Source: Streptomyces sp. NBC_00523
GTDB taxonomy: Bacteria; Actinomycetota; Actinomycetes; Streptomycetales; Streptomycetaceae
Length of the DNA: 64,000 nt
Assembly (NCBI RefSeq): GCF_036346615.1
Contig: NZ_CP107836.1
Span: forward strand, 4,092,001-4,156,000
Reading direction: 5' to 3'
Shown here: positions 53,268 through 58,673 of the stretch, piece after piece
How the letters are laid out: each line of letters begins with the position of its first letter
Position numbering within the stretch: position 1 is the stretch's first letter
Made by a program: the position numbers and the translations under genes
The notes under the pieces: model-generated
Databases searched by the model: none
Told to the model about the DNA's origin: nothing
What the model saw: the letters and a program-made list of their open reading frames with translations, nothing else

Positions 53268-54476
53268 TCAGCTCAGTTCGACCGGCAGTTCGAAGAGGTC
53301 GTTCTGCGTCACGATCGGCTTGTTGCGCAGCTCGGTGGCGGGAACGGCCAGCTCCAGCTCCGGGAAGCGCTCGTAGAGCGCGGGCAGGGCGACGCCCGCC
53401 TCCAGCCGGGAGAGGGCCGCGCCCGGGCAGACGTGCGGGCCGTGGCCGAAGGCGATGTGCCGGTTGGGCGAGCGCGTCACGTCGAACTCACCGGCCGTCG
53501 GGCCGTGCTGCTGCTCGTCGCGCCCCAGCGCGCCGAAGGAGACGATCAGGGCCTCGCCCTTGGGCAGGACCTTGTCGCCGACCTGTACGTCCTCCGTCGC
53601 GAAGCGGATCAGGACGTGCGAGGTCGGGGTGTTCCAGCGCAGCGTCTCCTCGATCACGTTCTCCCACGGCACCTCGCCGGAGAGGACCTGCTTGCGCTGC
53701 TCGGGGTGGGTCTCCAGCGCGACGACCGCGTTCACGATGAGGCTGATCGTCGTCTCGTGGCCCGCCGCGATGATCAGTTGCAGCGTGTTGACGATCTCCT
53801 CGTTGCTGAGGTGGTCGCCGTCCTCGGAGGCCTCGATCAGGGCGCTGGTCAGGTCGTCGCCCGGCTCCGCCCGCTTCGCGTCCACGATCTTCGTGAAGAG
53901 CGCGCCGAGGTCCGCCATCATCTGCGGGACCTCCTCCGGCGGCGTCTGCGTCGAGAAGAACTTCTCGAAGAGCTCCTTGAGCCGGGGGTGGTCGGCGGCG
54001 TCGACGCCCATCAGCTCACTGATCACGTTCATCGGCAGCGGGTAGGCGAACTCCGCCTTCAGGTCGACGCGTTCGCCCTCGGGCAGGGCCGCGAGGCGGT
54101 CCAGGCTCGCGGTCGTCAGCGCCTCGATGCCCGCACGCAGCCGCTCCACCCGCTTCACGGTGAGGGCCTGCGCGACGAGGGTGCGCAGCCGGCGGTGGTC
54201 GGCGCCGTCGACGGTCAGCATCGAGCGGCCCGGGTTGGCCAGGCCGATCAGCGGCCAGTCCATCGGGATCTCGCCGCGCTGCCAGGCGCCCCAGACGTTG
54301 ATGTCCTTCACGATCCGGGCGTCGGTGAGCAGCTGTCTCGCCTCGGCGTGGTGCGTGACGGCGTAACAGTGCACCCCGCCGGGGAGTTCGACCTCGGCGA
54401 GCGGCCCCGCGGCGCGCAGGGCGGCGCTCTCGCCGTCCAGGTCGGCGACGAAGGGGTCGAGGGCGATGCGAGTCAT
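53268..54476 (-). CDS. Cytochrome P450 (CYP154-like), conservon-linked
   Basis: A 402-residue P450 with AGHETT in the I helix, the intact EETLR (ExxR) motif in the K helix and the heme-binding [10 protein letters not shown] with the axial Cys. The N-terminal [19 protein letters not shown] is like CYP154 proteins, which are found paired with CYP157 behind conservons. Its ATG overlaps the stop of the CYP157-like gene (ATGA). Likely a monooxygenase acting on a signal or secondary metabolite. Confidence 0.88.
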
Positions 54477-55708
54477 ATCCGGCCTCCGAGGGCGGGGGTG
54501 GGTGTGAAGACGACGGGCAGACTGGTCATGCCCCGCAGCCAGGGGGAGGGGCGCCGGGTGAGCTGCCCGGCGGGGACGTCCAGGTCGATGTCCGGGAGGC
54601 GGTCGAGCAGGACCTCGATGCCGGTACGGGCGATGACCTCGGCGGTCTCCTGCGCCGGGAACGGGCAGCGGTGCTCGCCGTGCCCGAAGGACAGGAAGGC
54701 GCTGTTGCCGCCGGTCAGGGCCGAGCCGTCGACGCGGATCTGGGGGTCGGAGTTGGCGGCCGCGATGCCCAGGAGGAGCAGGTCGCCCGCCCGGACGTGG
54801 CGGCCCCCGAGGTGCGTGTCGCGCGCGGCCCAGCGGCCGGCGACGTTCTGCGTGGGGGTGTCCTCCCACAGCACCTCGTTCATGGCCTCGGCGACGCTGT
54901 GCCGGCCGCCGGAGAGCGAGGCGGCGAAGCGGTCGTCGGTGAGCATCAGCCGCAGCGAGTTGCCCATCCAGTCCGCGGTCGGCTGGTGGCCCGCCGCCAT
55001 CATGACCATGAGGTCCTGCATGACCTCCTCGTCCGTGAAGCCGCCGGGGTCGGCCAGCATCCGGGTGGCGACGTCGTCGCCGGGCTCGGCGTGCTTGTCG
55101 GCCAGCAGCTTCAGCATCGTCGCGGCGAGGTGCTGCTGGCCGGCCAGGGCGCGTTCCCGGCCGTCGATCATGTCGTTGATCGAGCCGACGAGCGCGTCGC
55201 CGTCCGCGTCGCTCACGCCGTACATCCGGGCCAGGACGCGGGCGGGGAGCAGCATGGCGTACTCGGCGATGATGTCGGTCGAGCCCTTGGAGCAGAACCG
55301 GTCGATCAGCTCGTCGGCGAACTCCTCGGCGAAGCGCTTGAGGGCGAACGAGTCGATCGCCTCCAGCGCGTTGCCGATCATCGCGGCGCGTTCGGCGTGC
55401 CGGGGGCCGACGGTGTAGAGGATCGAGGGCTGCTTGCGGCCGATCATGGGCAGCAGGGGCCAGTCGGCGGGGACGTTCTCCCACTGGTTCCAGAGGTCCG
55501 AGTCGCGGCTGAACAGCACCGGGTCGCTGGTGACCTGGTGGAGTTCGCGGTAGTCGAGGACCAGCCAGGCGGGGAGCCCGCCGTCCAGGACGACGGGCGC
55601 CACGGCTCCGTGGTCGCGCCGGATCTCCCGGTACAGCCGCACCGGGTCGCCCTGGAAGCGGGGTCCGGACAGCGGCACGGCACCGGCCGCGTGGGGGCAC
55701 TCGGTCAC
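54473..55708 (-). CDS. CYP157-like cytochrome P450 lacking ExxR
   Basis: A 411-residue P450. The I-helix reads AGHQPT and the heme loop FGHGEHRCPFPAQE keeps the axial Cys, but the K-helix motif is EVLW (E278-W281) instead of ExxR. Loss of this Arg is the known peculiarity of the Streptomyces CYP157 family. GTG at 55708 overlaps the cvnD stop (GTGA). Whether it is a catalyst or a partner of the CYP154-like enzyme is unknown. Confidence 0.9.
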   Translation of the reverse strand: MTECPHAAGAVPLSGPRFQGDPVRLYREIRRDHGAVAPVVLDGGLPAWLVLDYRELHQVTSDPVLFSRDSDLWNQWENVPADWPLLPMIGRKQPSILYTVGPRHAERAAMIGNALEAIDSFALKRFAEEFADELIDRFCSKGSTDIIAEYAMLLPARVLARMYGVSDADGDALVGSINDMIDGRERALAGQQHLAATMLKLLADKHAEPGDDVATRMLADPGGFTDEEVMQDLMVMMAAGHQPTADWMGNSLRLMLTDDRFAASLSGGRHSVAEAMNEVLWEDTPTQNVAGRWAARDTHLGGRHVRAGDLLLLGIAAANSDPQIRVDGSALTGGNSAFLSFGHGEHRCPFPAQETAEVIARTGIEVLLDRLPDIDLDVPAGQLTRRPSPWLRGMTSLPVVFTPTPALGGRI

Positions 55709-57132: not shown

Positions 57133-58673
57133 CGGGAGCTGTCCTCCGGGGGTGGGGAGTCGGGCCGTACGGCGTTGCGGAAGCTGCTGAAGCGGGCCGC
57201 CCGCGCCTTGGGGTCGGGTGCGTCCTCCGCCGCGCCGGTCTCCCGGGCGGGTTCGGGGGCGGTGGCCCGGGCCCGGGCCTCGGCGGCGGCCAGGGTGCGC
57301 CCGCGCGAGCGCTTGGGCAGGCCGCTCTCGCCGAACTTCGGGAGGTTGCCGGTGGTCTCCGAGGCGGAGTCGGAGCGCATGGGCTCGGGGGCGGAAGGCC
57401 GGGCGGCGGGGTCCGTCCCCAGGGTGTGGACGGGCTCGGGCTCGGTCCCGGCGGGGGCGGCCGCCGGGGCGGGCGCGGAGGCGGCGGGCGCGGGTTCCGG
57501 GGTGGTCCGGGGCGTGGTGGCGCGGGTGACGATCTCCTGCGGGAGCATCATCAGCGCGCCGGTGCCGCCGCGCGCGGAGGGCCGGAAGGAGACGGTCAGC
57601 CCGTGCTTGCGGGCCAGCCGGCCGACGACGGCGAGCCCGAGGCGGGTGCCGGTCAGGCCGGTGAGGTCGGCGTCGTCGGCGGAGACGGCGCGCTCCGCCC
57701 GGCGCAGCTGCACGTCGCTCATGACGAGGCCGCTGTCCTCGACGGTGACGACGATCCCGGCCGGGACCTCCTCCACGTACACATGGACCTCGGCGGTGGG
57801 TGGCGAGAAGTTCGCGGCGTTGTCGAGGAGCTCGGCGAGGGCGTGCATGACGCCCTCGGCGGCGTGGCCGGAGACGGCGACGTCGCTGGTGGAGTGGAGC
57901 CGGACGCGCTGGTAGCCGCTGATCCGGCCCATCGCGCCGCGCAGCACGGACTCCATGACGATGGGCTTGGCCCAGCGCCGTCCGGAGCGGGCGCCGGTGA
58001 GCACGGCGATGGAGTCGGCGAGGCGGCCGGCCTGGGCGGTGCGGTGGTCGAGGTGGAGGAGGTCGGCGAGGACGTCCTCGGCGGTGTGCCGGTGCTCCAT
58101 CTCGCGGAGGTCGGCGAGCATGCTCGTGGCCAGGGCCTGCATCCGGCCGGCCGCGTTGGCGCAGGCGGTGAGGGCGGCGGAGCGCTCGGTCTCGGCGCGC
58201 GCGGTGCGGGCCTTCAGCCGGGCGTTCTCGGCGGTGAGGCGGGCGGTGCCGGCCTCGGCCTCCTCCCTGGCCCTCGCCGTCTCCGCGGCGGCGGCCGCCT
58301 TGATGCGGGCGTTCTCCGCGGTGAACCGCTGGGCGTCGGCGGCGGAGGCCGAGACCATGCGGGAGACCTCCGCCGTGAACCGGCCGCTCTCGGCGGCGTG
58401 CGTCGCGCGGAGGCGGCGCACGGCGGCCCGGGCGTGGACGGCGGTGGTGACGGCGGCCACGAGGAGCAGGGCGGCCCCGCCGGAGCCCCAGGCCACCGCG
58501 GTCCTGGCCGATTCGGGAGCGGCGAAGGTCGCCCACACGCTCAGGGCTGCGGAGAGGGCCACCGTGACCAGAAGGGCCAGTGCGGTCGGCCGGGTAGAGG
58601 GGCGCAAAGCGGAGTCCTTGGGGCGGACGGCGGCGGACGGGGGCGATTCGGACCTGTGTGACGCGAGCGACAA
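57129..58673 (-). CDS. cvnA: Conservon sensor kinase-like protein CvnA
   Basis: A membrane histidine-kinase-like protein of 514 residues. Two N-terminal helices (about 31-50 and 60-80) precede a long Ala/Glu/Arg coiled coil (85-170), then an HATPase domain with the N box ELLDNAANFSPP, VEDSGLVMS and GTRLGLAVVGRLA. No DHp histidine box of usual form is evident. The C-terminal ~130 residues are Pro/Ala-rich. The ORF opens with TTG at 58673, but TTG at 58607 has AAGGA at six-base spacing and may be the real start. Confidence 0.88.
   Translation of the reverse strand: MSLASHRSESPPSAAVRPKDSALRPSTRPTALALLVTVALSAALSVWATFAAPESARTAVAWGSGGAALLLVAAVTTAVHARAAVRRLRATHAAESGRFTAEVSRMVSASAADAQRFTAENARIKAAAAAETARAREEAEAGTARLTAENARLKARTARAETERSAALTACANAAGRMQALATSMLADLREMEHRHTAEDVLADLLHLDHRTAQAGRLADSIAVLTGARSGRRWAKPIVMESVLRGAMGRISGYQRVRLHSTSDVAVSGHAAEGVMHALAELLDNAANFSPPTAEVHVYVEEVPAGIVVTVEDSGLVMSDVQLRRAERAVSADDADLTGLTGTRLGLAVVGRLARKHGLTVSFRPSARGGTGALMMLPQEIVTRATTPRTTPEPAPAASAPAPAAAPAGTEPEPVHTLGTDPAARPSAPEPMRSDSASETTGNLPKFGESGLPKRSRGRTLAAAEARARATAPEPARETGAAEDAPDPKARAARFSSFRNAVRPDSPPPEDSSR

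Follow-up and report, generated by a model that had tools for sequence, protein, structure and literature searches.

An ExxR-less CYP157 behind a Streptomyces conservon: a candidate heme-thiolate sensor next to a canonical CYP154

What does a cytochrome P450 (P450) do inside a signalling operon when nearly all of its catalytic motifs have been lost? The question is raised by a 64,000-nucleotide stretch of the genome of Streptomyces sp. NBC_00523 (contig NZ_CP107836.1, hereafter the window), in which the minus strand of 53268-58673 carries six overlapping genes, the conservon genes cvnA-B-C-D followed by a CYP157A-type and then a CYP154C-type P450. The first-pass annotation had proposed that the conservon passes its output on to the two P450s. 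The answer that we favour, with about even confidence, is that CYP157 serves the input side of the conservon as a heme-thiolate sensor or adaptor, with CYP154C as the working oxygenase. It starts from what was observed of the gene order, the residue losses and their conservation, the predicted fold, the absence of a sensor domain in CvnA and the pairing with CYP154. The genes and the K-helix motif are as follows, lengths being in amino acids (aa) and domain matches from Pfam:

57129..58673, minus strand: cvnA, 514 aa, histidine-kinase-like, HATPase_c PF02518 (E 5.8e-13), putative TTG start
56695..57132, minus strand: cvnB, 145 aa, roadblock/LC7, Robl_LC7 PF03259 (E 1.1e-22)
56333..56698, minus strand: cvnC, 121 aa, DUF742, PF05331 (E 4.6e-38)
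55705..56352, minus strand: cvnD, 215 aa, small Ras-like GTPase with P-loop GGFGVGKTT, ATP_bind_1 PF03029 (E 7.1e-31)
54473..55708, minus strand: CYP157A-type P450 (CvnE), 411 aa, GTG start at 55708
54863..54874, minus strand: K-helix motif E278-V-L-W281 of CYP157, codons 278-281 numbered from the GTG at 55708
53268..54476, minus strand: CYP154C-type P450, 402 aa, p450 PF00067

The HATPase, roadblock, DUF742 and GTPase genes in this order are the conservon gene set, and the conservon is complete, as had been annotated. Neighbouring genes overlap by 4 nucleotides (nt) at the cvnA/cvnB, cvnB/cvnC, cvnD/CYP157 and CYP157/CYP154 junctions, and by 20 nt between cvnC and cvnD, given a CvnD start at TTG 56352. 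The overlaps had been taken as a sign of a signalling complex, but overlaps of this kind are usual in operons and carry no information about a complex.

The first of the two P450s keeps the proximal Cys and a predicted P450 fold, and little else of the canonical pattern. Its I helix reads AGHQPT (Q242, P243) in place of the acid-alcohol pair, its K helix EVLW (E278-W281) in place of ExxR, and its heme loop FGHGEHRCPFPA, with Cys348 present and CPFPA where CxG would be expected. The annotation of this protein as an ExxR-less P450 of the CYP157 type, with EVLW exactly at E278-W281, proved right, and both of the doubts attached to it could be removed. A different ExxR register within the K helix is ruled out, since the protein has a single ExxR, the EIRR at residue 28, which is remote from the K helix modelled at 272-282. 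A sequencing error is ruled out by a 100% identical match over residues 1-411 in Streptomyces sp. CB01249 (which may be the same strain or one very close to it) and by the Trp found at the same position in 191 of 201 relatives; in one relative (L037) what looks like an ExxR is EAMR, which stands in another register beside the EVLW of that protein. We assign the protein to CYP157A by motifs, length and gene order, not by alignment to a named CYP157, and this putative assignment agrees with the Trp at the ExxR Arg, which the named CYP157A Svu023 also has, in an identical motif, and with the upstream conservon, to which the window gene is joined by the 4-nt cvnD overlap and which precedes CYP157, through CvnD, in 105 of 107 close relatives. 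The Pfam p450 model at an E value of 0.001 misses the window CYP157 and catches only 54 of 116 relatives (62 missed), so that P450 counts made from Pfam alone will undercount this family. The second P450 is the normal one that had been described. It has canonical motifs (AGHETT, EETLR, CPG) and belongs to CYP154C, with 89% identity over 401 residues to CYP154C4 (PDB 6a7i).

How deep these replacements run can be seen in an alignment of 201 CYP157-like and 142 CYP154-like proteins from Actinomycetes, in which 106 proteins have at least 70% identity to the window CYP157. In every one of the 106 the I-helix acid is Gln, the catalytic Thr is Pro, the ExxR Arg is Trp and the meander Arg is gone, with CPFPA in place of CxG; the C-helix HxxxR Arg is Ala in 101 of them. 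The position of Cys348 is Cys in all 201 CYP157-like proteins, nearly all of which also keep the heme-loop His, and most the Arg that follows the K helix. At the corresponding columns the acid, the Thr and the ExxR Arg are present in every CYP154-like protein (142/142 each), and none of the 11 other P450s checked in this genome has lost the acid or the K-helix or meander Arg. The column of the lost meander Arg shifts with the alignment (R in 12/201 or in 3/117), the loss being evident in both.

Such a protein might be a decaying P450 that is retained solely through the structure of the operon. The loss of nearly all catalytic motifs would fit this, as would a ratio of nonsynonymous to synonymous substitution rates (dN/dS) somewhat above that of its neighbours (about 0.22 for CYP157, 0.16 for CYP154 and 0.12 for CvnD). 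But the replacements are themselves invariant, a value of about 0.22 remains low, and open frames of the CYP157 type occur across several Actinomycetes families. CYP157 is under purifying selection, and decay, disfavoured by the sequence data, appears very improbable to us.

In a FastTree phylogeny of 172 P450s, the 117 CYP157-like representatives form a single clade (support 100), although long branches are flagged and the placement of the most divergent members is unsure. The ExxR Arg column of these representatives holds W in 107, F in five, Y in two, K in two and R in one, that is, an aromatic residue in 114 of 117. Fitch parsimony places a non-basic K-helix residue at the root of the clade and leaves the ancestral states of the acid and the alcohol between options. 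The loss of these two residues is patchy, EP, ETT or EAT being retained in some subclades, and the changes therefore arose in several steps. Two smaller groups can be mentioned here. One is a sub-clade of conservon P450s (L012, L114, L119, L120) in which the ExxR Arg is replaced by F or Y instead of W, in the motifs EVLF, TVLY and ELLY, and which have EP in the I helix. The other comprises tandem CYP157-like genes in other Actinomycetes families (L101, L104, L107, L119), some of them downstream of a conservon.

The AlphaFold model of the window CYP157 has a P450 fold with a mean predicted local distance difference test score (pLDDT) of 88.9. Its nearest solved folds are CYP154C1 and CYP154C2 (Z 46.5, about 27-29% identity); we found no solved structure nearer to CYP157 than CYP154 (about 29% identity). 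The matches listed in the structure search were P450s only, which we do not take as absence of other folds. The meander (321-340) is predicted with pLDDT of 71/65 versus 96/94 in the CYP154 control, despite the deeper CYP157 alignment. This low confidence, in a prediction made without heme, fits the loss of both Arg residues of the E-R-R triad.

If CYP157 is not a decaying enzyme, its position with respect to the conservon becomes the central point. To avoid the bias of a CYP157 query, we collected about 60 conservons by their DUF742 matches in ten genomes of several families, blind to P450s. Fifteen of them (window included) have a P450 directly after CvnD, with W in 13, F in one and Y in one at the ExxR Arg, and ExxR in none. 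The genome of the window itself (7.5 Mb) has ten conservons above the DUF742 cut-off, four of which are followed by a P450 of the CYP157-like clade. By a simple hydropathy scan, the window CvnA has transmembrane segments at 32-50 and 58-76, about 7 aa apart, and no extracytoplasmic sensor domain. A large sensor domain between the transmembrane segments was found in none of 11 P450-linked CvnA versus 33 of 40 P450-less ones (Fisher p 7e-7, a value that ignores shared descent). That P450-linked CvnA are without a sensor domain had been reported before (PMC13343842), and the pattern is repeated here in other genomes.

In two operons the GTPase gene cvnD has been lost cleanly and CYP157 kept. One (L027, genome G033) has the end of CvnA, CvnB, CvnC, CYP157 and CYP154, the closest CvnD in that genome being only 58-59% identical; the other (L036, genome G032, a draft assembly in which the contig is short) has CvnB, CvnC and CYP157 with neither cvnD nor CYP154. 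CYP157 is therefore not strictly dependent on an adjoining GTPase, and these operons are a natural test of whether it needs one. Among 199 genomes searched for the junction pattern, only the source operon was cvnD-less (1/199), although diverged operons would escape this pattern.

These results bear on the direction in which the signal flows. Since CYP157 has lost the acid-alcohol pair it would make a poor effector enzyme, and the annotated flow of output from the conservon to the P450s is further countered by the sensor-less CvnA, which points to the input side, and by the two cvnD-less operons. A related possibility is that CYP157 is a working P450 of unconventional type (peroxide-driven, isomerase, lyase or cyclase) and that the conservon has the two P450s as its output. 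In its support, the heme Cys and the P450 fold are retained, CYP154A1, of a neighbouring family, converts a dipentaenone to a cyclic product with neither oxidation nor reduction (J Am Chem Soc 2010, cited in PMC7369989), and a CYP154 of S. virginiae, clustered like the CYP157 of that species with the gene of an ATP/GTP-binding protein, hydroxylates estradiol (PMC3599690). We consider it unlikely nonetheless: the acid, the alcohol and both E-R-R arginines are all missing, the association with sensor-less kinases puts the P450 at the input, and the operons without cvnD retain CYP157.

The treatment of the two P450s as a pair was well founded, CYP154 lying directly downstream of CYP157 in 109 of 110 close relatives. 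Moreover, four species (L009, L095, L096, L097) have a CYP157/CYP154 pair with no adjoining conservon genes, and in the stretch read at these loci no conserved neighbour besides the two P450 genes was found. One of these pairs is in the window's own genome (L009:7476-10021, C1 about 6.415 Mb), where the 7.4 kb read upstream showed no conservon genes. In genome G012 (L028) the pair is far from the CvnD most similar to that of the window (80% identical), on one contig but at 2.23 versus 6.94 Mb, as though a rearrangement had split the operon and both halves had been retained. All three layouts speak for CYP157 as chiefly a partner that CYP154 needs for allostery, scaffolding or the handing over of substrate, comparable to P450-derived activators such as EryCII, with the conservon merely controlling or localising the pair. 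However, many of the more distant CvnE genes follow CvnD without a CYP154, which makes the conservon link the older one, and CYP157 retains the heme Cys that EryCII and DesVIII lack (PMC3391682) and falls far under the cut-off of their family, TIGR04515. We hold this partnership to be rather unlikely as the main role of CYP157.

We thus return to CYP157 as a sensor or adaptor, a reading drawn from the invariance of the replacements, the retained heme Cys and the sensor-less kinases, the input side being indicated because conservon P450s accompany CvnA proteins of that kind. The conservon, an actinobacterial G-protein system, belongs to the class with a sensor-less CvnA, for which CYP157 (CvnE) probably supplies the sensing. 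CYP157 very likely binds heme, judging from the P450 fold and proximal Cys, and it may bind a small hydrophobic ligand or a diatomic gas; ordinary monooxygenation is unlikely because the acid and alcohol of O2 activation and both E-R-R arginines have been replaced. Ligand or redox state would alter the contact of CYP157 with CvnA (or CvnB/C), the altered contact would set the GTP state of CvnD, and the adjacent CYP154C would make or clear the molecule sensed.

Several points weigh against this scheme. The ligand, heme content and interaction of CYP157 are things that we infer, like its lack of catalysis and the direction of the signal. Some P450s function without the canonical acid-alcohol pair. 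Some members of the clade retain E-T in the I helix, so not all of them need be inactive. The conservon-less pairs imply that CYP157 may serve CYP154 rather than CvnA, and the operons without cvnD could be served in trans by a GTPase from another locus. More tentatively than for the window itself, and with somewhat less than even confidence, the conservon-linked CvnE P450s as a whole could be P450s turned receptors, heme-thiolate sensors for sensor-less kinases, after one ancestral loss of the K-helix and meander Arg had uncoupled oxygenation, with CYP154 brought in repeatedly to produce or remove the ligand. Should the CvnE P450s turn out to be sensors and not enzymes, those who look for their "substrates" are on the wrong track, and the input missing from a large class of actinobacterial G-protein systems, which control antibiotics and development, can be put to the test.

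Upstream of cvnA a short intergenic region (58674-58859), likely the promoter region of the operon, separates it from a divergent open reading frame of 318 aa (58860-59816) whose sequence, by reading, resembles a membrane transporter.

The operon itself is neither an error nor new. Both EVLW in CYP157A and the link between CYP157 and conservons are published (PMC3599690), and CYP157 had been described as an exception to the ExxR rule (FEBS Lett 2006, as cited by PMC3599690); the challenge to that rule is thus real in the window protein but had already been made for its family. Apparently new are the aromatic residue that stands at the ExxR Arg across the clade, the disappearance of the meander Arg together with the acid-alcohol pair, and the natural variants that lack cvnD or the conservon, none of which we found in the open literature (subscription literature was outside the search). 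The family is no rarity, CYP157 accounting for 525 of 5460 P450s in 203 Streptomyces species and being among the commonest families (PMC7369989).

Among known systems, the closest is CYP157A (Svu023 of Streptomyces virginiae, CYP157A2 of S. avermitilis), which shares the conservon link and from which the window shows no notable difference. The Svu023 motifs GHQPT, EVLW and FGHGEHRCPFPA are identical to those of the window CYP157 (PMC3599690); the 2013 paper printed GHQPT, EVLW and HRCPFPA for the S. virginiae protein and limited its comments to the ExxR and heme motifs (PMC3599690). CYP157C1 of S. coelicolor has EQSLW instead, in which even the register of the Glu differs. The CvnE-containing Cvn systems of S. 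coelicolor have the same order of cvnA-B-C-D and then a P450, and a sensor-less CvnA (PMC13343842), but the window, like nearly all close relatives, has a further P450 after it, the canonical CYP154C. Two published results on these systems speak for the input side: AlphaFold2 places CvnE11 on the ATPase domains of CvnA11, and CvnF8, which belongs to the other class of accessory protein, binds CvnA8 and activates it (PMC13343842). Of the solved CYP154C4 (6a7i, 6a7j), CYP154C1 (1gwi) and CYP154C2 (6l69), the first is the one with 89% identity to the second P450; they are also the solved folds nearest to the window CYP157, which, at about 27-29% identity, is missing their catalytic residues. The P450-derived glycosyltransferase activators EryCII and DesVIII resemble CYP157 in the non-catalytic use of a P450 fold beside an active enzyme, but they are without the heme-ligating Cys (PMC3391682) that the window CYP157 retains, and its membership in their family (TIGR04515) is ruled out by this Cys and by a score of 82.4 bits versus a cut-off of 343, the CYP154 scoring 129.

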